From the NCBI RefSeq assembly GCF_023264855.1, contig NZ_JAHFUW010000030.1, forward strand, positions 1 to 52,863: DNA of 52,863 nt, read 5' to 3'. Under the pieces are notes generated by a model. It saw only the letters and a program-made list of their open reading frames with translations. It was not told the DNA's origin and searched no databases. Made by a program: the position numbers and the translations under genes. The stretch comes from Herbiconiux sp. (GTDB lineage: Bacteria > Actinomycetota > Actinomycetes > Actinomycetales > Microbacteriaceae). Positions 5,729 through 21,830 of the stretch are shown here, in pieces (positions within the stretch are counted from its first letter, which is position 1; each line of letters opens with the position of its first letter).

Positions 5729-6532
5729 TCAGCTGCGGTGGGCGATGACCTCGCGGAAGTCCTTGGCGCCGGCGCGGACGGCCTCGGCGATCTGCGTCTT
5801 GTGTTCGTCGGTGAGGCGGTAGTCGGGGGCCACCACAGTGAGCGCTCCGGCCGAGATGCCGTTCGTGCGCACGCTGGCGGCCGCCGCCCAGACGCCGCGG
5901 TCGACCTCACCGGCGCTCTCGGCGTAGCCGGAGGCGCGCAGGGGCTCGAGGTCGAGCTCGAGCTTCTTCTTCTCCTGCTTCGACAGGGTCGACCCCAGAC
6001 GGTTGAAGTACTGGGTGAGCTTCGCCGAGGTGAGCTCGCTCAGCAGCAGCTTGGCCGCCGCACCGCCGTAGAGGGGCATCAGGTTGCCGGGCTGGAACGA
6101 GATCGAGATCGGATGATCCGACTCCGCGATCGCCAGGCACACCGCCGAATCGTTGACCCGGCGCAGGTACAACGCCGTCTCGCCCGTCTCCTCCGTCATC
6201 CGGTTCAGGATCGGCTGCACCTGGGCCCGGAAGTCGATCGTCGTCTCCGCGGCCCGCGACAGGCGCAGGATCTGCGGCGAGAGCACGAAGCGGCCCTTCT
6301 CGCGCTCCTCGATCAGGTCGAGCTCCCGCAGCAGCGAGATGTAGCGATAGGCGCTCGGCACCGAGATGTCGTGCTTCTCGAGCACGTTGTCGACCGTGAG
6401 CTCCGGCGTGTTCTCGCTGAACTCGAGCAGGATCTGCAAGGCCCGGCGCGCACTGTCGACACCCTTGGTGCGCTGCGGCTCGGCGGCGGGTTCGCCTGCG
6501 TCGGTGATGTCGTGGTCGCTGATGTCGGTCAT
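5729..6532 (-). CDS. IclR family regulator of the B6 locus (predicted)
   Basis: A 267-residue IclR protein: N-terminal winged helix (VDSARRALQILLEF near residues 25-38, HDISVPSAYRYISLLRELDLI near 54-74) and a C-terminal effector domain (about 100-260). The ATG at 6532 has GGAG at a good distance; the longer frame from 6568 does not. It follows the second permease gene by 75 nt in the same direction, so it is probably the last gene of the transporter operon. IclR proteins often control aromatic and heteroaromatic catabolism. It is the best candidate for the factor that binds the TGAAT-N-ATTCA palindromes at 11.67, 12.23 and 21.9 kb. That link is inference. Confidence 0.85.
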   Translation of the reverse strand: MTDISDHDITDAGEPAAEPQRTKGVDSARRALQILLEFSENTPELTVDNVLEKHDISVPSAYRYISLLRELDLIEEREKGRFVLSPQILRLSRAAETTIDFRAQVQPILNRMTEETGETALYLRRVNDSAVCLAIAESDHPISISFQPGNLMPLYGGAAAKLLLSELTSAKLTQYFNRLGSTLSKQEKKKLELDLEPLRASGYAESAGEVDRGVWAAAASVRTNGISAGALTVVAPDYRLTDEHKTQIAEAVRAGAKDFREVIAHRS

Positions 6533-6607
6533 GGTCGGCTCCGCTCTATCGTAAGGGCCTGTTCGCACGGGGCGTGTTCCCGACGTGCTGGCGCGCCACA
6601 GCTGTCG

Positions 6608-7543
6608 TCATCGCGCTCCGCGAGTGTACGGCGTTCCGAGCGCGGGCGGCACGACGGAACTCCGGGCGAACACGATCAGCATCACGATCACGATCAGGAA
6701 CGGCAGCATCTTGATGATGTCCGCCGGCACCGTGAAGCCGATCACCTGCAGCGCCGGCCCGATCGCCACCGCCAGTCCGTAGATCAGCGAGGTGATCATC
6801 ACCACCAGGATGCGACCGCGCGAGAGCATCGTGATGACGATCGCGATGAAGCCGAGTCCGTTGGTGAGGAACGGACTGAACGTGGCCGTGGTCAGCAGCG
6901 CCAGGTAGGCGCCGCCGAGGCCGACGAGCCCACCGCTCAGCAGAACCGCGATCGACCGGGTGCGCATCACACTGCCGCCCGCCGCATCCAGCGACGACGG
7001 CTTCTGGCCCGCCGACCGCGTCGACAGACCCCAGTTGGTGCGGGCCAGCGCGAAGGCGAGGCCGAGCGCCAGCAGGATGCAGATCCAGAAGATGCCCGAC
7101 TGCTGGAACAGCGCCGGCCCGATCACGGGGATGTCGGACAGGCCCGGGATGGGCAGTTTCGGCTGCGCCCCCAGGCTCGCGGGCGACTTCGTGTAGTTCT
7201 GCAGGTAGAGCACACTCGTGATGCCCTCGCCGATCAGCGTGATGGCCAGACCGATGACGATCTGATTCAGGCCCAGCCACACGTTCAGCACGAGCATGGC
7301 GAGGTTCGCGACCACGCCCCCGATGGCCCCGCCGAGCATCCCGAGCCAGAAGCTGCCCGTGGTGAGGGTCACCACGAAGGCGGTGTAGGCGCCGACCAGC
7401 ATCACACCCTCGATACCGAGGTTCAGGATGCCGGCCTGCTCGCCGATCGTCTCCCCCACCGCGGCGAGCAGCAGGGGCATCGCCTGCGCGATGACGGTGG
7501 CGATGAAGACCGTGATGAAGGCGGCGGACAGCATGTCGCTCAT
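6608..7543 (-). CDS. BMP-type ABC transporter permease, second subunit
   Basis: 311 residues with about eight to nine membrane helices. It has the conserved GILNLGIEGVMLVGA segment near residues 38-52 that marks BPD_transp_2 permeases of the nucleoside/sugar/vitamin group (NupC-, YufQ-, RfuD-like). Its ATG overlaps the stop of the first permease by 4 nt (7540-7543), so the two are translationally coupled. With the ATPase and lipoprotein upstream it forms a complete importer. The cargo is predicted to be a B6 vitamer from its place inside the B6 degradation locus. Confidence 0.88.
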   Translation of the reverse strand: MSDMLSAAFITVFIATVIAQAMPLLLAAVGETIGEQAGILNLGIEGVMLVGAYTAFVVTLTTGSFWLGMLGGAIGGVVANLAMLVLNVWLGLNQIVIGLAITLIGEGITSVLYLQNYTKSPASLGAQPKLPIPGLSDIPVIGPALFQQSGIFWICILLALGLAFALARTNWGLSTRSAGQKPSSLDAAGGSVMRTRSIAVLLSGGLVGLGGAYLALLTTATFSPFLTNGLGFIAIVITMLSRGRILVVMITSLIYGLAVAIGPALQVIGFTVPADIIKMLPFLIVIVMLIVFARSSVVPPALGTPYTRGAR

Positions 7544-8700
7544 GCCGAGTTCCTCTCGGAGGCGCGGCGGAAGGGCTGCAGCACGGTGCGCTTCAGACCC
7601 GGGGGAAGGTAGCTCTGGCCGAGCCGGCGGCGATCGCCGATGTACTCGGTGATGGTCATGAACAGCAGGATGAGGCCCACGATCACCAGCAGGAAGTCGA
7701 CGTTCAGCCCCGCTTGCTGCGCGGCCAGCGTGCCGCCGGTGGCGAGCACGGCGTAGAACGCCACGAAGGGGATGGCGGCCACCGGCCGGAAGCGTGCCAG
7801 GAACACCAGCGGCATCACGGCGTCGCCGTACCGCGGATCCCAGTCGGCCCGCTGGTAGCTGAACTGCCCGAGGATGTCGACCGAACCGGCGAACGCGATC
7901 AGTCCGCTGGAGAGCGCGAAGAGCAGGATGACCATCCAGGTGGAGTTCAACCCCACGTGCCGGGCTGCTTTGGGGCTCGCCCCGAAGATGTCGACCCGCA
8001 GCCCGAACGAGGTGCGGCTGAACACGTACTGCGCCACGACGGCCAGCACGATGGCGATCACGAAGCCGATGTGGATCTCGGTGCCCGGGATGTAGGGCAG
8101 CAGATCGCTGTCGGGGATGACGGCGGTCTGCGGCGTCGAGGTGCCCGGATCCTTGAACACGCCCTTGATCAGCAGGTTCACCACGCCCACGGCGATGAAC
8201 GACATCACCAGCGAGGTGATGATCTCGTTCGTGCCGTAGCGTGCCTTGAGGATGGCCGGGATGAGCGACCACACCGCTCCGGTGAGCACCGCCACGACGA
8301 AGATGACGAGGGTGGCGAGAAAGGCCGGCATCACGTCGAACAGGATCGGCCCGAGACCCGAGGCCACGACCGCGCCGAGCAGGTACTGGCCGTTGTAGCC
8401 GAGGTTCCAGAGCTGGCCGCGGAAGGCGACGATCAGGCCGACGGCCACGATCAGCAGGGGCGCCATCAGCGAGAGGCTGCGCTGCCAGTTGCTGCCGGTG
8501 ATGCCGTACTTCCACACTCCCGCGAAGAACTCGAGCGGGCTGGCGCCGATGGCGAGCATCACCAGGCCCGACACGATGAGCGCCAGGAGAACCGGCACCA
8601 CCGAGCGGATGAAGCCCTGCGCGAATCGCTGGGCGGCGCCGGCCTGATTCGAGCCGGGGAGGTTCGGCGTGACCGGGGTCTTGAGGTCTGCAGTCGTCAT
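7540..8700 (-). CDS. BMP-type ABC transporter permease, first subunit
   Basis: 386 residues. A short hydrophilic N-terminus is followed by about ten hydrophobic segments. It has the family motif RGQLWNLGYNGQYLLGA near residues 92-108 and KARYGTNEIITSLVMS near 145-160, which is the coupling-helix region of nucleoside-type permeases (NupB/YufP/RfuC). The start overlaps the ATPase stop by one base (TGATG at 8700). The product would pair with the other permease to form the membrane channel. Confidence 0.88.
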   Translation of the reverse strand: MTTADLKTPVTPNLPGSNQAGAAQRFAQGFIRSVVPVLLALIVSGLVMLAIGASPLEFFAGVWKYGITGSNWQRSLSLMAPLLIVAVGLIVAFRGQLWNLGYNGQYLLGAVVASGLGPILFDVMPAFLATLVIFVVAVLTGAVWSLIPAILKARYGTNEIITSLVMSFIAVGVVNLLIKGVFKDPGTSTPQTAVIPDSDLLPYIPGTEIHIGFVIAIVLAVVAQYVFSRTSFGLRVDIFGASPKAARHVGLNSTWMVILLFALSSGLIAFAGSVDILGQFSYQRADWDPRYGDAVMPLVFLARFRPVAAIPFVAFYAVLATGGTLAAQQAGLNVDFLLVIVGLILLFMTITEYIGDRRRLGQSYLPPGLKRTVLQPFRRASERNSA

Positions 8701-10319
8701 CAGTCGGTGCCTTCGATCGCGCCGGTCATGTAGTGGCCCACTTTCTCTGCCGTTCCGGCTCCGTCGTTCACGACGCCGCCGACGAGGCTGCCGCGCGAGA
8801 TGACCTCGATGCGGTGCGAGAGCTCGATCAGCTCGTCGAGGTCGGTGGAGAGCAACAGCACCGAGCCGCCCTGGGCGGCGAACTCGATCAGGATCTCGCG
8901 CACGAGGTGCACGGTCTTCAGGTCGAGCCCGTAGGTGGGCTTGTTCACCACCACCAGGCGGGCGCCGTTGGTGAGCTCGCGGGCCAGGAGGATCTTCTGG
9001 ATGTTGCCTCCGGAGAGGGTGCCGGCGCGCGTGGCGGCCGACGGGGTGCGGATGCCGTACTCGTCGATCAGGCGCGTGGCCTCGGCGTCGACGGCCTTCT
9101 GCTGGATGCGGCCGGCCTTCCAGAACGGCTTCTGCCCGATCCGCTTGATCACGAGGTTGAGCGCCACCGACATCGAGCCGACCGTGCCCTCGTGCAGCCG
9201 GTCGTCGGTGACGTAGCGCACGCCGAGCTGCTGCCGGCCGCGCACGCCCGAGCGGGTGATGTCGACTCCGTCGAACAGCACGGTTCCGGAGACGGCCGAG
9301 CGCTGCCCGGCAACCACCTCGGCGAGGGCGGCCTGGCCGTGGCCGTCGATGCCCGCGATGCCGAGGATCTCGCCCTCGTGCACCGTCAGCGTGACGTCCT
9401 CGGCCTCGATGTCGCGGCCTCCCGCGCGGCTGGTGACGCCGCGCAGTTCCAGCCGCACCGGCCGGGTCTCGAAATCGATGGCGCGGGTCTCGCGCGTGGC
9501 CTCGGTGGCGCCGGCGAGTTCCGCGGCCTCCTCGAGGTCGGCGGCCGTGGGGTCGCTGCCCGCCGCACCGAGGTCGTCGCCGAACATCGCGGACAGGATC
9601 GCATCCTGAGCCTGCTTCTCGCTGTAGGAGGCGAGCTCGTCGACGCCGATGTGCCCCACATTGCGGCCACCGCGCAGGATGGTGACGCAGTCGCCCATCG
9701 CATAGGCCTCGCGGAGCTTGTGGGTGATCAGCACGACGGCCAGGCCCTGGGCCTTCACCCGCGCGATGCTCTCGCCGAGGTGCTCGATGGCCTGGGGGGT
9801 GAGCATGGAGGTGGGCTCGTCGAGCACGAGCAGCCGGCTTCCCTTCCACATCGCCTTGGCGATCTCGACCTGCTGCTGCTGGCCGAGGCCGAGGTCGGAG
9901 GTGAGAGCGTGCGGGTCGATCTGCACGCCGAGCAGGTCGGCGAGCTCTTCGAGGCGCTCGGCCGCCTGCTTCTTGTTCTGCAGCACGCCGGTGTCGCCGA
10001 GCATGAGGTTCTCGAGCACGGTGAACGCCGGTACCAGGGTGGAGTGCTGGTGCACCACGCCGATGCCGTAGTCGACGGCCACCTTGGGCGAGGAGATGTC
10101 GACGGTCTTGCCGCCGATGGCGATGCTGCCCGAGTCGGGCTGCTGCATACCGGCGAGGATGCTGATCAGGGTCGACTTGCCGGCCCCGTTCTCGCCGAGC
10201 AGGCAGTGCACCTGCCCGCCGACGATGTCGAGCGACACGCGGTCGTTGGCGATGACGCCGGGAAACGCCTTCGTGATGTCTCTCAGGGAGATGACGTCAG
10301 TCGTGGCCGTTGTCGTCAC
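8700..10319 (-). CDS. BMP-type ABC transporter double ATP-binding protein
   Basis: 539 residues with two fused nucleotide-binding domains. Domain 1 has Walker A GENGAGKST near residue 43 and Walker B VLDEPT, but its signature is altered (LGLGQQQQ). Domain 2 has a proper signature, LSGGN, but its P-loop is degenerate (GIDGHGQAAL) and its Walker B reads VVNKPTYGLD, without the catalytic Glu. One composite ATP site (domain 1 Walker plus domain 2 signature) is therefore intact and the other degenerate, as is usual in the RbsA/YufO-like family. The GTG start has AAGGAG 5 nt upstream. It is co-transcribed with both permeases and sits 126 nt after the lipoprotein gene. Confidence 0.92.
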   Translation of the reverse strand: MTTTATTDVISLRDITKAFPGVIANDRVSLDIVGGQVHCLLGENGAGKSTLISILAGMQQPDSGSIAIGGKTVDISSPKVAVDYGIGVVHQHSTLVPAFTVLENLMLGDTGVLQNKKQAAERLEELADLLGVQIDPHALTSDLGLGQQQQVEIAKAMWKGSRLLVLDEPTSMLTPQAIEHLGESIARVKAQGLAVVLITHKLREAYAMGDCVTILRGGRNVGHIGVDELASYSEKQAQDAILSAMFGDDLGAAGSDPTAADLEEAAELAGATEATRETRAIDFETRPVRLELRGVTSRAGGRDIEAEDVTLTVHEGEILGIAGIDGHGQAALAEVVAGQRSAVSGTVLFDGVDITRSGVRGRQQLGVRYVTDDRLHEGTVGSMSVALNLVIKRIGQKPFWKAGRIQQKAVDAEATRLIDEYGIRTPSAATRAGTLSGGNIQKILLARELTNGARLVVVNKPTYGLDLKTVHLVREILIEFAAQGGSVLLLSTDLDELIELSHRIEVISRGSLVGGVVNDGAGTAEKVGHYMTGAIEGTD

Positions 10320-10445
10320 GGGAGCTCCTTGGCTGGTGGCGTACGGGGTGAGACGGGCCGGAGGACCGGCGGGGTTCGAGGAGAGAGCCGGTGCCGCAGG
10401 CGGGGGGGCTGCGGCACCGACTCCGTCTGGATCAGACGCGGTGGA

Positions 10446-11549
10446 TCAGGCGCCCTTGGCGGCGATCACGGCGGCGACCTCGGCGGCCGAGGTGGCGATC
10501 GTGGGAACGATCGAGCCGTCGATGATGCCCTGCTTGGCCTTCTCGACCGCGGCCTCGATCTCCGGGGTCATCTGGTCGGTCTCCTGCAGGTACATGCCGC
10601 CGTTCTCGACGTCGACCGGGTAGGTCACGGTGCCGAAGGTGCCGGCGTCGACGTCTTTGATAGCCTGCACGTAGGCGGGCTCGTAGTTCCAGCGCACCGA
10701 GGTGAGCAGCTTGCTCGGGTCGCTGAGACCGGGGGTGACGTCGCCGATGTCGGCGATGTACTTCACGCCGGAGGAGGCATCGATCGCCTGGAGGTAGCCG
10801 TGCGTGGCACCGTCACCCATGCCGAACACGACGTCGGCACCGGAGGCGATGATCTGCTCGGTGGCCGTCTTGCCGCCGGCGGCGTCGGCGTAGGCCGCCG
10901 GGCCGACCGAGGTGTAGAGCACCTGGATGCTCGGGTCGACGCTGAAGACGCCCTCGGCGAAGCCGGACGACATGGCGAACCAGTTCGCGTTGTCGGCCGA
11001 GAGCACGAGGCCGACCTTCTTCGAGGTGGTCGACATGGCGGCGGCGACTCCGGCGAGGTATCCGCCCTCCTGGCCCTCGGGCTTGGCGGCGGCGATCTGG
11101 CCGGGCACGTTCTCGTCGGCGCCGGCATCCTGGATCAGGATCGGCACCTTCTTGGCGGCCGCGGCGCTGGCCGCTCCCACGTTGTAGCCGGAGGCGTGGG
11201 CCACGATGAACTGCGCTCCCCCGTCGGCCACCTGGTTCAGCACGGTCTCGATGTTGTCGTAGCCGGCATCCGGAACGATCGTGACGTCGATGCCGAGCTC
11301 TTCGGCGGCACCGTTGGCCGCATCGATGCCGGCCTGGTTGTAGCCGAAGTCGGACTCGTTCTCGGGCGCGACCAGGGCGAACTGGGTGACCTCGGTGGTA
11401 CCGGCCGACGAGGTCTCGGTTCCGCTGGAATCATCTCCTCCACGGCCCGACGAGCAGGCGGCGAGGCTGAAGGCGAGCGCACCGGACACGGTGAGCACCG
11501 CCAGACGGGTTGCAGTGCGGCGAGAAGTGCCGCTGGTGATTCTGTTCAT
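10446..11549 (-). CDS. BMP family substrate-binding lipoprotein
   Basis: 367 residues. A lipoprotein signal peptide ends with lipobox LAAC (Cys near residue 32), then a Ser/Gly/Thr linker, then a periplasmic-binding domain of the basic membrane protein (PF02608) type: DFGYNQAGIDAA near residue 65 and DVVFGMGDGATHG near 235. BMP proteins bind nucleosides (PnrA, BmpA) or riboflavin (RfuA). A vitamin ligand is therefore within the known range of the family. The gene heads the transporter operon, and its promoter carries palindromes shared with the B6 catabolic promoters, so I predict pyridoxine, pyridoxal or pyridoxamine as ligand. An upstream in-frame start at 11606 lies within the leader and is less likely. 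Confidence 0.88.
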   Translation of the reverse strand: MNRITSGTSRRTATRLAVLTVSGALAFSLAACSSGRGGDDSSGTETSSAGTTEVTQFALVAPENESDFGYNQAGIDAANGAAEELGIDVTIVPDAGYDNIETVLNQVADGGAQFIVAHASGYNVGAASAAAAKKVPILIQDAGADENVPGQIAAAKPEGQEGGYLAGVAAAMSTTSKKVGLVLSADNANWFAMSSGFAEGVFSVDPSIQVLYTSVGPAAYADAAGGKTATEQIIASGADVVFGMGDGATHGYLQAIDASSGVKYIADIGDVTPGLSDPSKLLTSVRWNYEPAYVQAIKDVDAGTFGTVTYPVDVENGGMYLQETDQMTPEIEAAVEKAKQGIIDGSIVPTIATSAAEVAAVIAAKGA

Positions 11550-11606: not shown

Positions 11607-11684
11607 AATTCTCTTACATTGTGCAGGGGTAGCGATACGATATGAGAATTAACAACGGATGCCAAGCCTGAAATTCAGTTGTTA
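11607..11684 (-). promoter_or_regulatory. Promoter and nested operators of the transporter operon
   Basis: On the minus strand TTGGCA (11665-11660) and TATCGT (11642-11637) are separated by 17 bp. Several inverted repeats surround them. CTGAA-A-TTCAG is at 11668-11678, just upstream of the -35 box. TAACAAC/GTTGTTA arms lie at 11650-11656 and 11678-11684. AATTCTC/GAGAATT arms lie at 11607-11613 and 11644-11650. The AATTCAG core recurs in the two other promoters of the locus. Confidence 0.6.
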
Positions 11685-11732: not shown

Positions 11733-12125
11733 ATGAAACGCTGGACCCCTACGGTGCTTTTCGCCGCGCTCGCCCTCGCGCTCACCTCGTGTGCCGGCGC
11801 ACCCGCGTTGTCACAACAGGATGCGGAGGCACTCGAGACGCTCGCCCAGGTCGCCGGTCCGACATCGAATGTCGATCCGGCTGCGATCACCAGCACGGAG
11901 TGCTGGTTGCCCTCCGATCATCTCATCGACGACGAGAGCGTGAGCGATACGACTTGGCGCGTCCTCTGCCGTGCCCATTACACCGACTCCAGCGGCGAGC
12001 GCTATCAGGACGCCACCTGCGTCGGTGACTTCGACGCCCAGCCGATGCTCGACCACTGCTACCGCTGGGCCTACTACTCGGGCATGCCCAGCTTCGAGGA
12101 CTTCCCCGGAGTCACCGCCCCCTGA
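11733..12125 (+). CDS. Small lipoprotein of unknown function
   Basis: 130 residues with a lipoprotein signal peptide. The lipobox is LTSC with the acylated Cys near residue 20. The mature part is acidic and has four further cysteines, probably in two disulphides (near residues 59, 75, 93 and 103). GGAGGAGG lies 8 nt before the ATG. It is divergent from the transporter operon and lies upstream of the lactonase operon, so it sits inside the B6 locus. I do not recognise a family. It could be an accessory binding protein or an unrelated insertion. Confidence 0.75.
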   Translation: MKRWTPTVLFAALALALTSCAGAPALSQQDAEALETLAQVAGPTSNVDPAAITSTECWLPSDHLIDDESVSDTTWRVLCRAHYTDSSGERYQDATCVGDFDAQPMLDHCYRWAYYSGMPSFEDFPGVTAP

Positions 12126-12179: not shown

Positions 12180-12239
12180 TTGACACCGCTCTTTTTCTTC
12201 TCATAACGTGATCGACAATTAGCGTCGGATGATAATTCA
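12180..12239 (+). promoter_or_regulatory. Promoter and operator of the lactonase operon
   Basis: TTGACA (12180-12185) and CATAAC (12202-12207) are separated by 16 bp, which is a good housekeeping promoter. A CGAC/GTCG dyad covers the expected transcription start (12213-12227). TGATAATTCA (12230-12239), a near-palindrome related to the motif in the other two promoters of the locus, follows it. This is AT-rich compared with its surroundings. Confidence 0.6.
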
Positions 12240-12267: not shown

Positions 12268-13026
12268 ATGACGGACCCGAAGGTCTATCTGCTGGACGGA
12301 GGCACGCTCGTCATCGACGAATCCGACGTGCACTGGCACATCAACGCCGGCAACCCGGTGCGCTTTCCGGTGTACAGCGTGCTGATCGAGCATCCGGACG
12401 CCCTGATCCTCTACGACACGGGCTTCGACCTCGACCACGTCAACGCCGTGCTGCCCTTCGAGCTGCCGCTGCAGACGCCCGAGCAGACGATCCCGGCGCA
12501 GTTGGCCGCCTGCGGCTTCACGCCCGACGATGTCGACATCGTGGTCAATTCGCACTTCCACTTCGACCACGTGGGCGGCAACAAGCACCTCACGAAGGCC
12601 ACCACCCTGGTGCACAAAGAAGAGCTACGGCACGCCAAGGTGCCCGAGCCCTTCGAGCGCCTCGGCTACTCCGACCTCTCGTTCGACCACGCCGAGGTGT
12701 CGTACAAGCCGATCTCGGGCGACTACGAGATCGTCCCGGGCGTCTGGCTGTTCGAGACCCCCGGCCACACCATCGGGCACTACTCCCTGCTGGTCGAGCT
12801 CGAGAACGAGCGCAACATGCTGTTCTGCGGCGACGCGGCCTACACGCACACCACCCTCGAAAAGGAGTGGATCGCGGGCTTCCACCTCGACCCCACGAAG
12901 TCGGTCGAGGCGATCCGCCGCCTGAACTACCTGGCGCGCACCAAGAACGCCGACATCTACCCCTCGCACGAGCTGGCCTCGTTCGAGACCTGGAACCTCG
13001 CACCCGCGTACTACGGAGGAAACTGA
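12268..13026 (+). CDS. 4-pyridoxolactonase (metallo-beta-lactamase fold)
   Basis: 252 residues of the metallo-beta-lactamase/lactonase fold. The metal motif HFHFDH is at residues 96-101, and further metal ligands lie in TPGHTIGH and near GDAA. The N-terminal VYLLDGG, the VRFPVYS segment near residue 31 and GYSDLSF closely match, from memory, the Mesorhizobium loti enzyme that hydrolyses 4-pyridoxolactone to 4-pyridoxate (EC 3.1.1.27). AHL lactonases share the fold, but the neighbours settle the role. The ATG at 12268 follows GAGGAAAG by 10 nt. It is the first gene of a three-gene operon, 2 nt before the dehydrogenase. Confidence 0.88.
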   Translation: MTDPKVYLLDGGTLVIDESDVHWHINAGNPVRFPVYSVLIEHPDALILYDTGFDLDHVNAVLPFELPLQTPEQTIPAQLAACGFTPDDVDIVVNSHFHFDHVGGNKHLTKATTLVHKEELRHAKVPEPFERLGYSDLSFDHAEVSYKPISGDYEIVPGVWLFETPGHTIGHYSLLVELENERNMLFCGDAAYTHTTLEKEWIAGFHLDPTKSVEAIRRLNYLARTKNADIYPSHELASFETWNLAPAYYGGN

Positions 13027-13028
13027 CC

Positions 13029-13886: not shown

Positions 13887-15434
13887 ATGGGTTCCGACGT
13901 CTTGATCATCGGCGCCGGATCGGCCGGCAGCGTGCTCGCGAACCGGCTGAGCGCCGATCCGTCGCGCCGGGTGACCGTGCTCGAGGCGGGCGAACGGGTC
14001 ACCGACCCGGAGATGCGGCGGCCCGAGCTGTGGCCGTTCATCCACGGGCGATCCTACGACTGGGCCTACCGCACGACGCCGCAGGCCGGCTTGGCCGGGC
14101 GCTCGCTGGACTGGGCGCGCGGCAAGGGGCCGGGCGGTTCGAGTCTCGTGCACGCGATGGCCCACATGCGCGGCTGCCGGGCCGACTTCGACCGCTGGGT
14201 CGACGAGACCGGCGACGAGCGATGGTCGTGGGAGGCCCTGCTGCCGGCGTTCATCCGCTCCGAGATGTTCTCGGGCGGCGCGAGCGACGTTCACGGCGAC
14301 AGCGGTCCGCTTCCCGTGCTGCTGCCGGGGCCAGATCTCTCCAGTCCCCTGGTGCTCGACTACCTCGCGGCCTGGGAGGCGCTCGGCGTCGCCCGCATCC
14401 CCGATCACAACGGCGGCGAGATGATCGGCGCCACCCCGAACTCGCTCACCATCCGTGACGGGAAGCGGGTGACCGTCTCCGACGTGTACCTCGATCCGGT
14501 GCTCGATCGGCCCAACCTCACGCTGCTCACCGGCGTCACCGTGCATCGCCTGCTGATCGACGGCGGCCGGGTCACCGGCGTCGCCGTGACGCGTGACGGG
14601 CACCACGAGGTGCTCGAGGCCGACGAGGTGATCCTCTGCGGCGGGTCGATCGGCGACCCCCTGCTGCTCATGCGCTCGGGCGTCGGAGACCCGCGGATGC
14701 TACGGCAGGCGGGCGTGGACGCCGTGCTGGAATCGCCCGAGGTGGGCGGCAATCTGCACGACCACCTGCTGGGTGCCGGCAACGTCTACACCTCCCGCCG
14801 GCCGGTGCCGCCGACGCGCCTGCAGCTCTCGGAGTCGATGACGTACCTGTCGGCGAACGGGGTGTCGGAGACATCCGGAGTCGTCGACGTCGTGGTGGGT
14901 TGCGTGGTCGGTCCCAGCGCGTCGGAGATCTGGGCCGGCGAGGCGGCGGACGCCGGTGCGGTACCGGGCGAGGCGTACACGCTGCTGTTCGGTGTGACGA
15001 ACCCCACCAGCCGCGGATCGCTGCGCATCTCGGGGCCCGACATCGGCGACGAGCCCGTGATCGACCCGAACTACCTCTCCACCGAGCACGACCGCGCGAT
15101 GTTCCGGCTGGCGCTCGAGCACTCCCGGCTGGTGGGCGGATCGGAGGGTCTCGCCTCCTGGCGCAAGGCCGAGGTGCTGCCCTCTGCGGCGCTCACGACC
15201 GATGCCGAGGCGGATGCCTTCATCGCCCGCGCGGCGATCACCCACCACCACCCCGTCGGCACGCTCAGCATGGGCCGCTCGGAGCACGCCCCCGTCACGC
15301 CCGACCTCCGCTTCCGCGGCCTGGACAACCTCCGGGTGGTGGACGCCGCGGTCATCCCCTCCATCACGGCCGGCCCCGTGCACGCGGCAGTGCTGGCGAT
15401 CGCCGAGTCGTTCGCGCACACCTACCCGTCCTGA
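13887..15434 (+). CDS. pno: Pyridoxine 4-oxidase (GMC flavoenzyme)
   Basis: 515 residues of the glucose-methanol-choline family. The FAD loop IIGAGSAGS is at residues 6-14, the GPGGSS signature near 80, and the catalytic His region ITHHHP and TAGPVHAAVLA lie near the C-terminus. The central NLHDHLLGAGN, RRPVPP and ESMTYL blocks match pyridoxine 4-oxidase (EC 1.1.3.12) of M. loti very well from memory. The enzyme oxidises pyridoxine to pyridoxal and makes H2O2. The enzyme activity was classically studied in Microbacterium luteolum, a plausible relative of this host. It lies 87 nt after the dehydrogenase and ends at a bidirectional terminator. Confidence 0.88.
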   Translation: MGSDVLIIGAGSAGSVLANRLSADPSRRVTVLEAGERVTDPEMRRPELWPFIHGRSYDWAYRTTPQAGLAGRSLDWARGKGPGGSSLVHAMAHMRGCRADFDRWVDETGDERWSWEALLPAFIRSEMFSGGASDVHGDSGPLPVLLPGPDLSSPLVLDYLAAWEALGVARIPDHNGGEMIGATPNSLTIRDGKRVTVSDVYLDPVLDRPNLTLLTGVTVHRLLIDGGRVTGVAVTRDGHHEVLEADEVILCGGSIGDPLLLMRSGVGDPRMLRQAGVDAVLESPEVGGNLHDHLLGAGNVYTSRRPVPPTRLQLSESMTYLSANGVSETSGVVDVVVGCVVGPSASEIWAGEAADAGAVPGEAYTLLFGVTNPTSRGSLRISGPDIGDEPVIDPNYLSTEHDRAMFRLALEHSRLVGGSEGLASWRKAEVLPSAALTTDAEADAFIARAAITHHHPVGTLSMGRSEHAPVTPDLRFRGLDNLRVVDAAVIPSITAGPVHAAVLAIAESFAHTYPS

Positions 15435-15599: not shown

Positions 15600-16058
15600 T
15601 CAGTCGCGGCTGAAGGTGCCCACCGTGCGCGCGACCTCGATGATCGAGTCGGCGTAGGAGGCCAGGAAACCCTCGCGGGTGGGCTCGCCCACGACGGGGG
15701 TGCTCAGCGCGTAGAGGTGGAAGAAGTAGTGGTGCTGGCCGTGACCGGCCGGCGGCTGGGGGCCGTAGTACACCGCGGCGCCGGCACCGTTCGGAGCCAC
15801 GCGCACGCCCTCGGCCGAGAGGTCGAGCGTGCTGGCGTCGGCGGGGATGCCGTAGACCACCCAGTGGGTGAAGCCGTTCGCGAGCGGGGCATCCGGGTCG
15901 TTCACGATCAGGGCGAACTCGACCGTGCCCTCGGGAGCACCCGAGATGGCGATGCCGGGGGTGTCGTTGCCGCCGTCGGCGCTGAAGTTCTCGGGGATGC
16001 GCTCGAGGTTCACGAAGTCGGGGCTCGAGATGGCGAGCTTGTCGATGAAGAGGGGCAT
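15600..16058 (-). CDS. YbhB/YbcL family (PEBP) protein
   Basis: 152 residues of the phosphatidylethanolamine-binding protein family. The ligand-pocket motif DPDAPLANGFTHWVVYGIP lies near residues 52-70, and GPQPPAGHGQHHYFF near 98-112. AAAGGAA precedes the ATG. It is the last gene of the leftward catabolic operon, after the acetamidomethylene-succinate hydrolase. PEBP proteins bind phospholipids or small anionic ligands, and no enzymatic step of B6 breakdown is known to need one. Its inclusion may mean a binding or chaperone role for a pathway intermediate, or simply read-through. Confidence 0.85.
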   Translation of the reverse strand: MPLFIDKLAISSPDFVNLERIPENFSADGGNDTPGIAISGAPEGTVEFALIVNDPDAPLANGFTHWVVYGIPADASTLDLSAEGVRVAPNGAGAAVYYGPQPPAGHGQHHYFFHLYALSTPVVGEPTREGFLASYADSIIEVARTVGTFSRD

Positions 16059-16117: not shown

Positions 16118-16987
16118 TCACACGCCGAGTGCCAGGGCGATCTCGGCGGCGACCAGCTCGGGTTGTTCTTCGGGGATGTAGTGGTCGGCGCCGGCGACCT
16201 CGATCCAGCGGTCGGCCGGATGGCTGTCGGCGGGGCGGAGCGCCATCGCCTGTTTCCAGGCGGCCTCGCTCACCAGCTTGCTCTCGGCACCGCGCAGGTG
16301 GGTCATGGGCACAGGGACTTCCCGGAATTCCCGGTCGTACGGGGTGCGGAAGCCGTCGATCAGCTGCGCCATCGCCGAGGCGGAGGCCCGCGGCATCCAC
16401 TCGCCGTCGCCGACCTGCTCGTAGCCCCACGCGGCCCGCCGCTGCACGGCCCCCGGCAGGATGGCCGGGTAGCGCTCGCGCAGGTACTGCTCGATCTCGG
16501 CGGGGCTGCCGAACGGGCGGAAGCCGAGGGCGACCCGCTCGTCGAGCTGATCGAGAACGGATGCCTCGACGAACGGCGTGTAGTCCACCACCACGGCGCC
16601 GGTGACGCGCGAGGGATGGCGGGCCGCCGCGAGCCAGGCGTTGCGGCCGCCGAGCGAGTGCCCGGCGACCAGCGCCTGGTCGAGGCCGAGGGCATCGAGC
16701 ACGGTGATCACGTCCGAGACGAAATCATCACCGGCATATCCACCACCGGGCTGGCCGTGCGAAGGCTTATCACTCCGGCCGTGACCGCGCTGATCCAGCG
16801 CGATCACGGTGGAGCGGTCTTCGAGGGCGTCGCCGACCGGCTCCCAGACGGCGTGGTTCGCCGAGGTGCCGTGCAGCAGCACGACGGCGGGCCCGGCGCC
16901 CCGCATCCGGAACGCGATGTCGACATCGGCGCCCCGGGTGCGGGAGAGGCCGTCGCCGATGCTCTCGACGGAGACGGCTCTGCTCAT
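16118..16987 (-). CDS. (E)-2-(acetamidomethylene)succinate hydrolase (alpha/beta hydrolase)
   Basis: 289 residues of the alpha/beta-hydrolase fold: oxyanion strand VVLLHGTSANHAVWEP near residues 35-50, nucleophile elbow GHSLGGRN with Ser near 111, and the acid and His (GADHYIPEE) near the C-terminus. DQRGHGRSDKP, VDYTPFVEA and LRGAESKLVS fit the M. loti enzyme that hydrolyses the ring-opened product of B6 catabolism (EC 3.5.1.29) to succinate semialdehyde, acetate, ammonia and CO2. This would be the last pathway step. The start has only a weak ribosome-binding site, 13 nt after the preceding stop, which suggests coupled translation. Confidence 0.87.
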   Translation of the reverse strand: MSRAVSVESIGDGLSRTRGADVDIAFRMRGAGPAVVLLHGTSANHAVWEPVGDALEDRSTVIALDQRGHGRSDKPSHGQPGGGYAGDDFVSDVITVLDALGLDQALVAGHSLGGRNAWLAAARHPSRVTGAVVVDYTPFVEASVLDQLDERVALGFRPFGSPAEIEQYLRERYPAILPGAVQRRAAWGYEQVGDGEWMPRASASAMAQLIDGFRTPYDREFREVPVPMTHLRGAESKLVSEAAWKQAMALRPADSHPADRWIEVAGADHYIPEEQPELVAAEIALALGV

Positions 16988-17000
16988 CAGTGGATGCTCG

Positions 17001-17936
17001 TCAGACGTTCGGGATGGTGGAGAGCGTCTTGCGCGCCGCGATGAGACCGGTGATGATCTCCTTGCGCTTCGCGTCGACGTCGCCCTCGCCGTACTCGTAC
17101 ATGCCGCCGTTCGACTTGAAGCCGAGCTGGCCGGCCGCGATCTTGTCCTTGATGAACTGCGGGGTGTCGGTGCTGACGTCGAGGTCTTTGTTCAGGTAGC
17201 TCGAGACGGCCTGGTAGATGTCGAGGCCGGCCATGTCGAGCAGACGGGTGGGGCCGATCACCGAGAGCTTGTAGCCGATGCCCCACTTGACGCAGGCGTC
17301 GAGACCCTCGGGGGTGACGATCCCTTCTTCCAGCAGCGCCATGCACTCGCGCAGGATCGCGTAGAGCACGCGGTTCTCGACGAAGCCGGGGATCTCCTTC
17401 TCCAGCACGGGCGTGTAGTTGAAGGCCTTGACGATCTCGGTGAGCTTGCCCACGAGCGCCTCGTCGGTGGCCTTGCCCGGGATGATCTCGATCATCGGGA
17501 TGAGGTGCGGCGGGTTCGACCAGTGCATGCCGATCAGGCGGCCGGGCACGGTCATCGACTCGGCCATGGTGCTGATCGGGATGCCCGAGGTGTTGGTGGC
17601 GATGATCACGTCGTCGCCGATGCGCGACTCGAGGTCGGCGAGCACCTTCTGCTTCAGGGCGAGGATCTCGGGCACGGCTTCGATGATCAGCTCGGTGCCC
17701 TCGAGGGCCTCGTCGAGGTCGGTGCCGAAGCTGACCGATCCGCCGGGGGCGGAGGGCGAGTCGACGGCGGCGAGCACGTTCTGCACCATGCCGTAGGCGG
17801 TTTCGGCGCGGGCGATCGCGTCTTCGGAGATGTCGTACAGACGCACGGTGGAACCGGCGCGGGCGAGGACGGCGGCGATGCCGGGGCCCATGGTGCCCGA
17901 TCCGATGACGGTGGCGATCGTGGGGAGACTGCTCAT
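17001..17936 (-). CDS. 5-formyl-3-hydroxy-2-methylpyridine-4-carboxylate dehydrogenase (3-hydroxyacyl-CoA dehydrogenase fold)
   Basis: 311 residues with an N-terminal Rossmann domain (VIGSGTMGPGIA at residues 10-21, acidic YDIS for NAD+) and the C-terminal helical domain of 3-hydroxyacyl-CoA dehydrogenases. NTSGIPIS, GMHWSNPPHLIPMIEII and the FVENRV segment are present. Among such folds, the M. loti enzyme of the B6 pathway (EC 1.2.1.100) oxidises an aldehyde on a pyridine ring rather than an acyl-CoA. The neighbouring decarboxylase uses its product, and no other fatty-acid oxidation gene is near, so I assign that role. GAAAGAGAG precedes the ATG. Confidence 0.85.
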   Translation of the reverse strand: MSSLPTIATVIGSGTMGPGIAAVLARAGSTVRLYDISEDAIARAETAYGMVQNVLAAVDSPSAPGGSVSFGTDLDEALEGTELIIEAVPEILALKQKVLADLESRIGDDVIIATNTSGIPISTMAESMTVPGRLIGMHWSNPPHLIPMIEIIPGKATDEALVGKLTEIVKAFNYTPVLEKEIPGFVENRVLYAILRECMALLEEGIVTPEGLDACVKWGIGYKLSVIGPTRLLDMAGLDIYQAVSSYLNKDLDVSTDTPQFIKDKIAAGQLGFKSNGGMYEYGEGDVDAKRKEIITGLIAARKTLSTIPNV

Positions 17937-18005
17937 CTGGGTGCTCTCTTTCGCGGGTTGATACGGGTGGAGATCTAAGGGATGGTCAGGATGCCTTGCG
18001 GCGGC

Positions 18006-18785
18006 TCAGACGCCCGGGGGCAGGCCGATCGGCGAGATGCCGATGCCGAAGGCGGTCTCGACGCGCTCGAGGCGGCGGTTGAAGAAGGTCCAGAAGTTGT
18101 GCTGGGCCTTCGGCGGGTAGATGCGGTCGAACTTCTCCTTGGTCTCCTCGGCGTCGGGCTCGATCGGCACGAAGCCGGACGCCTTGAGGTCGACCTGGAA
18201 GCGGGCCGCCTTCTCGAGGAAGATGCCCGTGAGCGTCACCTCGGCGACGGTGCTGCCGACGAAGGCCACTCCGTGGTTGGCCAGCAGCAACGCCTGGGCG
18301 TCTCCCAGCGTCTTCGCCGCCGCGATGCCCAGCGGCACCGTGGTGATGATGTGGCTGGTCTCGGCGAAGCGCGGAACGCCCTCGTAGGCGAACCAGACGC
18401 CGTGGTTGTTGTAGGGCTTCAGCGACTCCTCCGAGGCGCCGAGCACCGTGGCGTAGTGCGCGTGCGAGTGGCCGACGAAGTTCACGTCGGGGCGGGCCTT
18501 CATGATCTCGGCGTGCAGCGGCCACTCGATGTGGCGGAGGCCGGTGCCCTCGAGCATGTTCCCGTCGAAGTCGATCAGGATGAAGTCGTCGCCCTCGACC
18601 TCGCTGAGCGCGAGGTTGCCGCGCTTCAGCCAGAGGCCGCGGCCGAAGGGGTCACGGAACGAGAGGTGGCCCATCGACATGTCGCCGTGGCCCTCGAGCT
18701 CGAGGATGCGGTGCGCGCGCGCCACATCGGCGAGGATGCTGGCGATGGACTGGTCTTCGTAGTACGGCGTGTGCGAGTAGGTCAC
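18006..18785 (-). CDS. 3-hydroxy-2-methylpyridine-4,5-dicarboxylate 4-decarboxylase (class II aldolase fold)
   Basis: 259 residues of the class II aldolase/adducin fold. The metal-binding HSHAHY lies near residue 105, with a further His in NHGV (near 169) and the acidic partner HIEWPLHAE near 86. Family members are aldolases, epimerases or decarboxylases. Between the formylpyridine dehydrogenase and the ring oxygenase, the expected reaction is loss of the 4-carboxylate (EC 4.1.1.51) in a Mn-dependent way. It starts with GTG, preceded by AAGGAG at 5 nt. The order in the operon matches consecutive pathway steps. Confidence 0.86.
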   Translation of the reverse strand: MTYSHTPYYEDQSIASILADVARAHRILELEGHGDMSMGHLSFRDPFGRGLWLKRGNLALSEVEGDDFILIDFDGNMLEGTGLRHIEWPLHAEIMKARPDVNFVGHSHAHYATVLGASEESLKPYNNHGVWFAYEGVPRFAETSHIITTVPLGIAAAKTLGDAQALLLANHGVAFVGSTVAEVTLTGIFLEKAARFQVDLKASGFVPIEPDAEETKEKFDRIYPPKAQHNFWTFFNRRLERVETAFGIGISPIGLPPGV

Positions 18786-18837
18786 GGATGCTCCTTCGGG
18801 CTCTGCGTGTCTTGCGGCTGGGTGATACGGCTGGTGC

Positions 18838-19425
18838 TCAGGACTGCTTGCCGGCGACGACCTCGTCGACGGTGATGCCCCCGACGCGGGCGTTCACCCG
18901 GCCGCCGGTGGCGACGGCCGCGATGATCACGATCTCGTCGGGGCGCGGCGCATCCGGAAGCGTCAGGGTGATCGCGTCGTAGTGCGACCGCACGTACACC
19001 TCATCTTTGTACGCGAGGGGGATGTCGATCTGCGCCCCCGCCGGTGCGACCTTGGTGGCCGACGAGATCCAGGCCTCGCCGCCGCCGACGGCCGCGCGCA
19101 GGGCGTTGCCGAACACGGTGGTGACGCAGGCCACGATGTGCTCCTGTTCGCCGTTCACGCCGGCGAGCCCGCCCTTGCCGTAGCTCTCGACGGGGCGGCC
19201 GCCCAGCAGGGCGACAGCGCGACGGCCGAGCTCGGTGCCGAGGCTCTCGCTGGCGTCGGTGAGCGGCGAGAGGTCGTCGACCCACTGCCCCGCGAACGGG
19301 TTCTGGAACACCACGGCGACGGCGGCCTTGATCAGCGGCTGCTCCGGTGCGGGGCCGAGCTCGTGCACGGTCTCCTGCACGAAGGAGTGCCAGGCTCGGA
19401 CCTTGTAGATGGAATCGATGCTCAT
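18838..19425 (-). CDS. AA_synth family protein, role unknown
   Basis: 195 residues resembling the 'amino acid synthesis' family (PF06684), whose biochemical role is not established. Visible features are the conserved KAAVAVVFQNPFAG near residue 36, GKGGLAGVNGEQEH near 83, AVGGGEAWISSATK near 112 and a C-terminal ATGGRVNARVGG near 170. It has no obvious catalytic metal motif. It lies between the decarboxylase and the ring oxygenase and overlaps the latter's stop by 4 nt (19422-19425). This tight coupling makes a part in B6 ring breakdown, or processing of a labile intermediate, likely. Confidence 0.8.
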   Translation of the reverse strand: MSIDSIYKVRAWHSFVQETVHELGPAPEQPLIKAAVAVVFQNPFAGQWVDDLSPLTDASESLGTELGRRAVALLGGRPVESYGKGGLAGVNGEQEHIVACVTTVFGNALRAAVGGGEAWISSATKVAPAGAQIDIPLAYKDEVYVRSHYDAITLTLPDAPRPDEIVIIAAVATGGRVNARVGGITVDEVVAGKQS

Positions 19426-20606
19426 GATGCTGCTACCTCGTGTCGCTCGGTGTCGTTTCGGTCGGAATCGTGACGGTGGGGATCGGTGGGGTTGTAGAGG
19501 GCGGTCTCGACGCTCTCGCCCACGAACTGATTGCCCTTGGCCATCTCGCGGGTGTCGGCGTACCACTGGGAACGGTCCTGCGCGAGGTCGGTGTAGGGGC
19601 GCTCGACGCGCTCCCACTCGGTGAGCGCGTGCGGCAGGGAGTCGGTGCCGCCGGATGCCACGGCCTCCGTCGCCGCCACGGCCAGCGTCCAGGCGTTCTG
19701 CATGGCGGTGCCGGCGCCCTGGGCGAGCGCGGGGCACATGGCGTGGGCGGAGTCGCCGATCAGGGCGGCCCGGCCCTGGGTCCAGTGCTCGAGCCGGGTG
19801 GTCTGGTAGCCGTAGTAGCGGCCCTGGATGCCCGCGGCATCCTGGAGCACCGGCGCCAGCTGCGGGAACACCGAGGTCCACAGCTCGAGGTCGATCGGCA
19901 CGCGGGAGCCGTCGGCGTCGGCGGAGGGCGACATCAGGGCGATGTAGAGCTCTTCGTCGTTGGCCGGCGTGTAGAGCACGCGCAGCACGCGGGGCTCGAG
20001 GTTCCAGAAGTCGATCACGTTGTCCCACTCGGTGTCGGGCTCGAGCGCCTGCAGCTCGGCCTTGTGCCGGGGCACCAGGAAGCGCGTGATGCCGTCGCCC
20101 GAGCGCTGGCGCTTCAGCGGGATCCCGAGCGAGTCGCGCACCGCCGATCCCACGCCGTCGGCCCCGATGACGAGGTCGGCGGTCCTCTTCTCACCGGAAG
20201 CCAACGTGACCTCGCCCTCGGGCGTGGCCGCCACGACTTCGGAGCCGGCCAGGATCTCGACGCCGGCCTCGCGCGCCGCGGTGAGCAGCGTCTGGTGCAG
20301 GTGCGGGCGGGTCATCGTGCGCCAGCGGATGCCGTCGAGCTCCTCCTGCGACTGGATGACGTTGTTCATACGCGTCTCGTAGGCGGGCGGGGTCATCGAG
20401 CGCTCGTTCAGGTCGTGCGTCGCTCCGATCGCATCCAGCACCTGCAGGCTGTTGTTCCAGAGCACGATGCCCGCGCCCTCGGCGCGCAGCTCCGGTGCCC
20501 GCTCGTGCAGGCGCACGCTCCAGCCCTTCTGCGCCAAGGCGGTGGCCGCGGTGAGTCCCGCGAAGCCCCCACCCGAGATCTCGGCGTGGCGTCGGCTATC
20601 GGTCAT
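19422..20606 (-). CDS. 2-methyl-3-hydroxypyridine-5-carboxylate oxygenase (FAD monooxygenase)
   Basis: 394 residues of the PHBH-type flavin monooxygenases. It has the FAD loop GGGFAGLTAA near residues 12-21, the DG motif IGADGVGS near 147, and the GD motif IGDSAHAMCPALAQGAG near 285. The MTRPHLH, WDNVIDFWN and SRVPIDLELW segments match MHPCO of M. loti (EC 1.14.13.242) strikingly from memory. MHPCO hydroxylates and opens the pyridine ring in one reaction to give (E)-2-(acetamidomethylene)succinate. It is the signature enzyme of the route and the strongest single evidence for it. The charged His/Asp/Arg-rich tail after residue 375 is probably unstructured. Confidence 0.9.
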   Translation of the reverse strand: MTDSRRHAEISGGGFAGLTAATALAQKGWSVRLHERAPELRAEGAGIVLWNNSLQVLDAIGATHDLNERSMTPPAYETRMNNVIQSQEELDGIRWRTMTRPHLHQTLLTAAREAGVEILAGSEVVAATPEGEVTLASGEKRTADLVIGADGVGSAVRDSLGIPLKRQRSGDGITRFLVPRHKAELQALEPDTEWDNVIDFWNLEPRVLRVLYTPANDEELYIALMSPSADADGSRVPIDLELWTSVFPQLAPVLQDAAGIQGRYYGYQTTRLEHWTQGRAALIGDSAHAMCPALAQGAGTAMQNAWTLAVAATEAVASGGTDSLPHALTEWERVERPYTDLAQDRSQWYADTREMAKGNQFVGESVETALYNPTDPHRHDSDRNDTERHEVAAS

Positions 20607-20693
20607 GAGCTGATTCCTGTCTGTTCTGTCGTGGAGTGTGCGTGGTCTGGGCTCGGCGGCGGCCGGTGCGGGATGCTCCGGCGGCGACCGGGC

Positions 20694-21830
20694 TCAGAAG
20701 TCCTGGGCGGCGCCGATGGTGATCACCGAGAGGCCGATCACCTGTGCGGTCGAGATCGCGTTCTGCTTGCCGGCTCTTCCCGCGAACTCCTCGGCGCCGG
20801 TGGGGGTGTGGTAGCGCCAGCCGTCCGGATGACCGACACCCACGATCGCCGCGCGGGTGACCTGGGTGACGTTGCCGAAGTCGGTGGCGAAGCCGAGTGC
20901 GGGCGGCTCGGCCACGAAGTCGCGGCCGGCGGCGGCGAAGGCCTCGGCGACCAGGGCGGTGACGCCCGCATCCGGTCGCACCGCGTCGATGACGCCCGAT
21001 GTGGTCCAGGTGGCCTCGCCGACGGTCTCGTGCAACTCGGCGATGCGGGCCTCGAGCTCCTCGGCGGTGTGCGCGAAGACCAGGAAGCTCGCCTCGAAGG
21101 TCATGCCGGCCGACTCCTCGACATCGCCGTCGACGGTGACCGACTCGATGATGAGGGTGGCGGGGTCGAACCGCTCGGCGACCTTCGACACGTTCGCCAA
21201 CGCGACCAGCGGGGTGCACACGACGTCGCGGCGCAGGGTGCGGATGCCGACGACGTGCGCGGTCTCGCGGCGCATCAGCAGCGAGGCGGGCCAGACCGTG
21301 TCGATGAACTCCGGATGCGGGTAGAGGGCCACGTCGATGTCGTCCCACACGCCGGCCGCGGCGGTGCGGGCCTTGCCGCTGCCGAGCTCGCGGGTGAGTG
21401 GGGAGTGGATCTCGTCGGCCGGGCAGCCCACGATCACCACGGAACCGGTGAGCTGCTCGCGCACGGCGGCGAGGGCGAGGGCCGCGCCGATCACGCCGCC
21501 GGCCTGCGGGCCGTGGCCGCAGGAGTGCACGGGGTTCACGCGGCCGTCGTCGTCGATGGAGGCGGGTGCGTCGTAGACGGCGATGACGCCGACCTTCGTG
21601 CCGGGCGCGGCGAACTCGAGCTCGGCACGGAAGGCCGTGTCCATCCCGGCGACGCCCTCGGTGACGGTGTAGCCGGCGGTGCGCAGCTGCTCGACGAGGT
21701 AGGCCGCGGTCTCGGTCTCCTGGTGGGCGAGTTCCGGATGCTCGTTCACGAAATCGACGATCGCCTCGATCGACGGCGTGGCGGCCGACACCGCATCCTG
21801 AAATGCGTCCACCGTCGTCTGGCTTGTCAT
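20694..21830 (-). CDS. M20 family metallo-hydrolase, first gene of the catabolic operon
   Basis: 378 residues of the M20 peptidase/amidohydrolase type. The HSCGHG metal motif is near residue 102, and a DEIHSP segment near 136 replaces the usual GExxGG dyad. This is closer to the M20D/PM20D2 (aminoacylase or dipeptidase) group. AGGAG lies 6 nt before the ATG at 21830. It leads the leftward operon that ends at YbhB. No M20 enzyme belongs to the known pathway. It may cleave an amide, such as an acetamido intermediate or a conjugated pyridoxine form, but this is inference. Confidence 0.85.
   Translation of the reverse strand: MTSQTTVDAFQDAVSAATPSIEAIVDFVNEHPELAHQETETAAYLVEQLRTAGYTVTEGVAGMDTAFRAELEFAAPGTKVGVIAVYDAPASIDDDGRVNPVHSCGHGPQAGGVIGAALALAAVREQLTGSVVIVGCPADEIHSPLTRELGSGKARTAAAGVWDDIDVALYPHPEFIDTVWPASLLMRRETAHVVGIRTLRRDVVCTPLVALANVSKVAERFDPATLIIESVTVDGDVEESAGMTFEASFLVFAHTAEELEARIAELHETVGEATWTTSGVIDAVRPDAGVTALVAEAFAAAGRDFVAEPPALGFATDFGNVTQVTRAAIVGVGHPDGWRYHTPTGAEEFAGRAGKQNAISTAQVIGLSVITIGAAQDF

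Follow-up and report, generated by a model that had tools for sequence, protein, structure and literature searches.

The 52,863-nucleotide contig NZ_JAHFUW010000030.1 of Herbiconiux sp. (Microbacteriaceae), hereafter the window, carries at 5729-21830 a vitamin B6 catabolic gene block, which is very probably a scavenging unit that provides the vitamin as a source of carbon and nitrogen and has as its basis the degradation route I known from Mesorhizobium loti and Pseudomonas MA-1. This proposal draws on gene families, conserved clustering and a shared palindrome, and every activity and substrate range given below is a prediction from sequence. The locus is real and conserved across genera, and the route is mostly a known one. 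Among the matches listed from the open-licence literature there was no account of these genes in this lineage or of any actinobacterial route I cluster, and one may still exist in print. A sequence-only reading of the window had placed a locus for B6 degradation and uptake here, and this proposal stands. The seven enzyme genes lie close to the positions it gave, a transporter and a regulator accompany them, the block recurs in several genera, and five proteins (4-pyridoxolactonase, pyridoxal 4-dehydrogenase (PLDH) and the ATPase, binding protein and permease 2 of the importer) pass curated NCBIfam equivalog cut-offs.

Route I enzymes encoded by the block

Six of the seven enzymes have their route I counterpart as best match in the PDB by a wide margin (Table 1), consistent with the earlier assignment of the seven folds to this pathway; the seventh, the class II aldolase, does not fit that assignment and is discussed below. 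The Mesorhizobium loti LU cluster, read from DNA, was the comparison set for pairwise identities, and the alignment to M. loti proposed previously gives 40.2-54.3% for the same six enzymes (52.7% for PLDH and 45.9% for FHMPC dehydrogenase) but 32.2% for the aldolase. None of the six was closer in sequence to fatty-acid or salicylate enzymes, the outcome that had been named as speaking against the assignment. By sequence, pyridoxine 4-oxidase (PNOX), PLDH, 4-pyridoxolactonase, 2-methyl-3-hydroxypyridine-5-carboxylate oxygenase (MHPCO) and (E)-2-(acetamidomethylene)succinate (AAMS) hydrolase belong to their respective route I families. PNOX keeps the ITHHHP motif of the Mesorhizobium enzyme, while the GHSLG, Asp and GADHY motifs, which we take to be the catalytic triad, are conserved between the two AAMS hydrolases. 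The source organisms of the matched PDB entries are presumed, except for Mlr6791, where the molecule name states it.

By strand the genes form three units. Unit 1, read leftward, encodes an IclR regulator, two permeases, an ATPase and a BMP-type binding lipoprotein. Unit 2, rightward and divergent from unit 1, encodes a small lipoprotein, 4-pyridoxolactonase, PLDH and the GMC oxidase PNOX. Unit 3, leftward and convergent on unit 2, encodes an M20 protein, MHPCO, a PF06684 protein, the class II aldolase, FHMPC dehydrogenase, the alpha/beta hydrolase and a PEBP protein. Of the two convergent operons previously suggested, the convergence is retained in units 2 and 3, but unit 1 is a third, divergent unit. 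The PF06684, PEBP, M20 and four-cysteine lipoprotein genes had been overlooked. The host genome comprises 4.37 Mb in 97 contigs and is 95% complete.

Table 1. Features of the B6 block, in window coordinates; percentages are amino-acid identities to the Mesorhizobium loti LU copy
Feature	Position	Strand	Evidence
IclR-family regulator	5729-6532	-	PF01614/PF09339
ABC importer permease 1	6608-7543	-	NF047928 339 bits, under 465 cut-off; 47.6%
ABC importer permease 2	7540-8700	-	NF047929 500.9 bits, cut-off 400
ABC importer double ATPase	8700-10319	-	NF047930 787 bits, cut-off 670
BMP-family substrate-binding lipoprotein	10446-11549	-	NF047927 440 bits, cut-off 400
Candidate operator, TTCTCATA-N22-TATGAGAA	11611-11648		3 mismatches; between importer and lipoprotein gene
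130-aa lipoprotein	11733-12125	+	Lipobox cysteine and four invariant cysteines
Candidate operator, same palindrome	12198-12235		2 mismatches; downstream of CTTGACA -35-like box, before lactonase
4-Pyridoxolactonase	12268-13026	+	NF047925 425.8 bits, cut-off 325; PDB 3aj3 258 bits, next 123; 51.2%
Pyridoxal 4-dehydrogenase (SDR, PLDH)	13029-13799	+	NF047923 377.5 bits, cut-off 325; PDB 3ndr 241 bits, next 179
Pyridoxine 4-oxidase (GMC flavoprotein, PNOX)	13887-15434	+	PDB 4ha6 559 bits, next family 265; 54.3%
PEBP/YbhB-like protein	15600-16058	-	PF01161; 53.9% to copy in B6 cluster
AAMS hydrolase (alpha/beta hydrolase)	16118-16987	-	PDB 3kxp 183 bits, next 68; 40.2%
Putative FHMPC dehydrogenase (3HCDH fold)	17001-17936	-	PDB 4om8 289 bits, next 140; NF042925 377.9 bits, under 500 cut-off
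Class II aldolase-fold enzyme, putative HMPDC decarboxylase	18006-18785	-	Not orthologous to known decarboxylase; HxH and later His conserved
PF06684 (AA_synth, DUF1185) protein	18838-19425	-	Pfam; 58.2%
MHPCO	19422-20606	-	PDB 3alj 401 bits, next family 85; 53.8%
M20-family amidohydrolase, optional member	20694-21830	-	PF01546

In the proposed pathway the BMP-type ABC importer would take up pyridoxine or pyridoxal, PNOX would convert pyridoxine to pyridoxal, PLDH would oxidize pyridoxal to 4-pyridoxolactone and the lactonase would hydrolyse this to 4-pyridoxate. Oxidation at C5' would then give the aldehyde (FHMPC) and the dicarboxylate, both likeliest through FHMPC dehydrogenase. The aldolase-fold enzyme would decarboxylate the dicarboxylate, MHPCO would open the ring, and the alpha/beta hydrolase would split the ring-opened product into acetate, ammonia, CO2 and succinate semialdehyde, with the PF06684 protein possibly assisting the last stage. 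An orthologue of pyridoxamine-pyruvate transaminase (PPAT), present in several relatives, was not found in the host genome, where the best match is 31% identical; pyridoxamine is therefore not among the predicted substrates, which are pyridoxine and pyridoxal.

The block shares PNOX, PLDH, lactonase, a putative FHMPC dehydrogenase, MHPCO, AAMS hydrolase and the BMP-type importer with route I of Mesorhizobium loti and Pseudomonas MA-1, and the LU cluster also has the PF06684 and PEBP genes, in a related gene order. Unlike the Mesorhizobium system, the locus has no second GMC gene, its aldolase shows 32% identity to HMPDdc and is widely separated from that enzyme in a tree, and it has an extra lipoprotein, an M20 gene and the IclR/palindrome pair; the failure to find a PPAT orthologue in the genome is a further difference. 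Route II (Pseudomonas IA and Arthrobacter Cr-7) ends in 2-(hydroxymethyl)-4-oxobutanoate, whereas the enzymes matched in the window are those of route I. Among cofactor catabolic pathways, B6 breakdown is described as the best understood (PMC3538738); the compact cluster gathers a missing dehydrogenase step, a replaced decarboxylase, PF06684, PEBP and a palindrome in one testable place.

Several observations weigh against the assignment of the block to route I. FHMPC dehydrogenase and permease 1 score under their equivalog cut-offs, although a B6 family is still the top match of each. The GMC oxidase, the MHPCO-like protein, the AAMS hydrolase and the aldolase have no B6-specific NCBIfam match, so their identity comes from PDB sequence matches; the top NCBIfam match of PNOX is choline dehydrogenase, under the cut-off of that model. 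The nearest solved relatives of the aldolase are pyruvic oxime dioxygenases and not the known decarboxylase. The host genome has a second GMC gene (39-41% identity, 39% to PNOX) on contig C51 near aldehyde dehydrogenase matches, and in an assembly that is 95% complete in 97 contigs a non-GMC 4-pyridoxate dehydrogenase may be encoded elsewhere. One of the three palindrome matches in this genome is outside the locus, and each promoter keeps just one arm well. Finally, Arthrobacter Cr-7, an actinobacterium already known to degrade B6, does so by route II (PMC3538738).

Degradation of another hydroxylated pyridine by the cluster is highly improbable. Such a function would accord with the occurrence of MHPCO homologues (36-43%) on plasmids, for example next to a 3-hydroxy-2-methylquinolin-4-one dioxygenase gene on pAL1, but the lactonase and PLDH exceed curated B6 cut-offs, PNOX scores far higher with the B6 enzyme than with any other family and MHPCO is 54% identical to the rhizobial B6-cluster copy.

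The 4-pyridoxate and decarboxylation steps

The seven enzymes had been thought to cover the whole route, a claim that does not hold for the conversion of 4-pyridoxate to FHMPC, which has no dedicated gene in the locus. In Mesorhizobium a second GMC gene (mlr6792), which we take to encode 4-pyridoxate dehydrogenase, lies immediately upstream of the FHMPC dehydrogenase gene. A dedicated GMC-type 4-pyridoxate dehydrogenase was found neither in the window locus nor in the near-complete relatives G011 (99%) and G069 (98%). When the second Mesorhizobium GMC protein was the query, these two genomes returned the cluster PNOX alone (37-39%), while one further, weaker GMC gene each was detected in the host genome (G000), G026 and G047, and a third in G000.

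Comparison was extended to loci from a contig scan of the best 80 of 468 relatives. In all, 83 stretches were tabulated, L106-L111 (lactonase 30-32%) being excluded, and 28 of these were chosen as non-proteobacterial. The 28 comprise neither the proteobacterial loci nor L061, L067 and the fragmentary or flanking stretches L020, L023, L024, L094 and L103; L051 was retained. Bit thresholds for the locus table were set by hand; near-duplicates occur (L022/L043 and the Herbiconiux loci), and many stretches end at contig ends or at the 10 kb flank, so absences are weak. Within the stretches examined, the second Mesorhizobium GMC gene had no counterpart in any of the 28 loci, among them 15 of a second type carrying a molybdenum hydroxylase (see below), all of which have FHMPC dehydrogenase.

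As no separate 4-pyridoxate dehydrogenase was found, FHMPC dehydrogenase is the likeliest enzyme for both C5' steps. The Mesorhizobium FHMPC enzyme is reportedly an NAD-dependent dismutase, which can convert FHMPC to 4-pyridoxate and back. We infer this double role tentatively, with somewhat less than even confidence, in preference to PNOX or an unlinked enzyme. That PNOX itself oxidizes 4-pyridoxate, acting on both the 4' and 5' alcohols, appears unlikely. The Mesorhizobium gene taken to encode 4-pyridoxate dehydrogenase is a GMC paralogue whose best match in G000, G011, G026 and G069 is the cluster PNOX, which would be consistent with such a dual specificity; G047 and Glaciibacter superstes (L043), however, keep the downstream enzymes without a PNOX-type GMC gene in the examined stretches, having a zinc alcohol dehydrogenase instead, and the best GMC gene of G047 (40%) is located elsewhere in its genome. 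It is somewhat doubtful, too, that an unlinked, unrelated dehydrogenase performs the step. These genomes contain many alcohol dehydrogenases, with zinc enzyme matches of 32-44% outside the locus, and one off-locus palindrome match occurs in G000 (C9, 3 mismatches), but no particular gene is positively supported and the loci otherwise keep the route genes together.

The first-step enzyme bears on this choice. Across the 28 loci a PNOX-type GMC gene occurs in nine and a zinc alcohol dehydrogenase gene in 14, with both in none and neither in five. This exclusion pattern in the locus table fits a zinc enzyme standing in for PNOX at the first step, and on that reading the candidate for 4-pyridoxate that the loci have in common is FHMPC dehydrogenase; alternatively, the zinc enzyme could perform the 4-pyridoxate step. 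Examples of loci in which the zinc alcohol dehydrogenase seems to replace the PNOX-type GMC gene are L022:18070-19116 and L045:11834-12931.

The decarboxylase is the second departure from the Mesorhizobium pathway. Against the PDB the aldolase scores 83-85 bits with 8iqa, 8il8 and 8ix6 and 58 bits with Mlr6791 (2z7b), and with 32.2% identity to Mesorhizobium HMPDdc it does not qualify as an HMPDC decarboxylase of the Mlr6791 type. The HxH motif and a later His are conserved, presumably as metal ligands. In a decarboxylase tree of 29 rows (27 different, two being duplicates) the terminal branch leading to the Mesorhizobium enzyme is 5.8 changes per column long; the placement of long branches, this one included, is unsure. 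From its position in the block and by exclusion of other genes, the aldolase may be a functional replacement of the HMPDC decarboxylase. According to PMC11841055, the three best PDB matches are structures of pyruvic oxime dioxygenase, in which the class II aldolase fold occurs in an Fe(II) form, and the higher score (85 bits to 8iqa/8il8 versus 58 to 2z7b) would suit an oxygenase of this kind. We consider that function improbable: the route requires a decarboxylase, no other candidate was recognised in the locus, and a related aldolase gene (48%) is located inside an alphaproteobacterial B6 cluster (L063). That cluster combines the window-type aldolase with a PNOX-type GMC gene, and no GMC gene of the 4-pyridoxate dehydrogenase type was over threshold within 20 kb.

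Accessory genes, import and regulation

Of the 28 loci, all 12 of the MHPCO type have the PF06684 gene and none of the remaining 16 does, while AAMS hydrolase and PEBP each accompany MHPCO in 11 of the 12, the exception being L041, whose stretch reaches just past the PF06684 gene. As both accompany MHPCO across loci, PF06684 and PEBP belong with the ring-opening half of the route. To our knowledge neither has a known role in B6 breakdown, the literature having been searched for PF06684, with no search aimed at PEBP. Hydrolysis of an N-acyl-aminomethylene succinate to succinate semialdehyde is common to route I and the trigonelline (tgn) pathway, the latter reportedly described in Acinetobacter baylyi by Perchat in 2018. 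The tgn pathway has another substrate and ring-opening enzyme, and its PF06684-type protein, TgnF, is likened to that of the window by its description. PMC7913881 states that the oxidation of succinate semialdehyde during trigonelline breakdown is stimulated by TgnF, a homologue, and that a like effect was sought for HcdD without success. A chorismate-mutase-like fold characterises the PF06684 proteins, which lack an established function and for which the structure paper suggests a part in amino-acid metabolism (PMC2954203). Of 385 matching records, six plasmid neighbourhoods were read, and in three of them a succinate semialdehyde dehydrogenase gene is close to PF06684. We infer that the PF06684 protein is a helper at the succinate semialdehyde end of the route. 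Searching the host genome with a succinate semialdehyde dehydrogenase model gave 12 matches, none over the curated cut-off.

The 130-residue lipoprotein has a lipobox and four further cysteines that are invariant across nine aligned sequences. Its gene occurs in 12 of 12 MHPCO-type loci and in none of the other 16; beyond these, it was seen among the tabulated stretches in the fragments L024 and L094. The best Pfam match has an E value of 0.15, under the cut-off, and a structural model (mean pLDDT 80) gave no PDB fold match at E<=0.001. The protein may represent a previously undescribed family; speculatively, it could have an accessory function in uptake. The M20 gene was found in eight of the 28 loci, with identity down to 35%. 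A zinc-type reductase gene at 4675-5691 was considered as a member of the locus and rejected, having no counterpart beside the G011 locus at 1e-8.

Three of the four importer subunits exceed the curated cut-offs of the putative B6 ABC transporter set (NCBIfam NF047927-NF047930), from which the window departs in permease 1, at 339 of 465 bits; the NCBIfam family description itself labels the transporter as putative. The IclR gene is over threshold in 12 of the 28 loci, all of the MHPCO type. IclR is the likely regulator, predicted to act through the palindrome shared by the two promoters in Table 1, and the locus is probably inducible. In the first promoter (11611-11648) the right arm, TATGAGAA, is found in eight of eight aligned loci and the left arm is variable. 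In the second (12198-12235) the left arm, TCTCATA, is kept in nine of nine, with a right arm that is degenerate in the window and several other loci. The promoter of the third unit has degenerate half-sites only. In genome searches (N22, up to three mismatches) the matches inside the locus were two of three in G000, two of three in G011, two of two in G026 and one of two in G069; a reversed-pattern control gave no forward matches in the first three genomes and two in G069.

Distribution and a second type of locus

The locus is patchily distributed. MHPCO was detected at 1e-60 in six of 150 genomes of the family, the window's included. Four of the other five carry the block, while G012 has a contig fragment with the lactonase, PLDH and part of MHPCO. 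Among them, G026 and G069 have no M20 gene at threshold or within the examined stretch, and G047 lacks both the M20 and GMC genes. Among named relatives, the block occurs for example in Herbiconiux, Microbacterium, Naasia and Glaciibacter; one Herbiconiux strain with the locus is H. solani NBRC 106740 (L032). In samples of the phylum (396 genomes, the window's own counted) the lactonase was found at 1e-60 in five and MHPCO at 1e-90 in one, the MHPCO run scoring four first-look candidates per genome. An MHPCO homologue alone was rejected as a marker of B6 clusters, as 13 plasmid matches (36-43%) were obtained and four annotated regions are non-B6 by annotation. A fifth plasmid region that was read (NGR234, unannotated) had no lactonase match by tblastn, and the plasmids gave no pyridoxolactonase match at 1e-40.

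Comparison of the loci exposes a separate type that has no MHPCO module and in which ring opening may proceed differently. A molybdenum hydroxylase, with no detectable MHPCO module, is encoded by 15 of the 28 loci (L038-L040, L042, L044-L052, L054 and L058), from Actinomycetota, Chloroflexota, Dormiibacterota and one host labelled Acidobacteria. Lactonase and FHMPC dehydrogenase are present in all 15 and PLDH in 14; no MHPCO, PF06684, PEBP or AAMS hydrolase was found in the stretches examined. A luciferase-like monooxygenase and an M29-like protein occur in 13, the other two being short contigs. The top PDB match of a model of the M29-like protein (mean pLDDT 85) is NicX, a 2,5-dihydroxypyridine dioxygenase (2.8e-20, TM 0.69), with M29 aminopeptidases close behind (from 5.8e-18, TM 0.64-0.70); by sequence, NicX is the sole PDB match at E<=0.01, and a weak one (0.005). 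The gene content and model suggest hydroxylation followed by ring opening by a dioxygenase, possibly as another B6 route, with a fold that fits dioxygenase and aminopeptidase alike.

A broader view, which we regard as rather doubtful, is that actinobacteria have reworked B6 catabolism. A single NAD-dependent 3HCDH-fold enzyme would perform both 4-pyridoxate oxidations, PF06684 would be an overlooked enzyme of the semialdehyde step shared with rhizobia, and the sister loci would employ a molybdenum hydroxylase and NicX-type ring opening.

Two other stretches stand apart. In the record titled Mycobacterium sp. KBS0706 (L067), a name that may be wrong, the layout of the B6 cluster resembles that in Inquilinus limosus (L064). 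In Dongia mobilis (L053:679-4073) genes for a cupin, an LVIVD-repeat protein and a glutathione transferase lie beside that of FHMPC dehydrogenase, perhaps as another variant of the locus.

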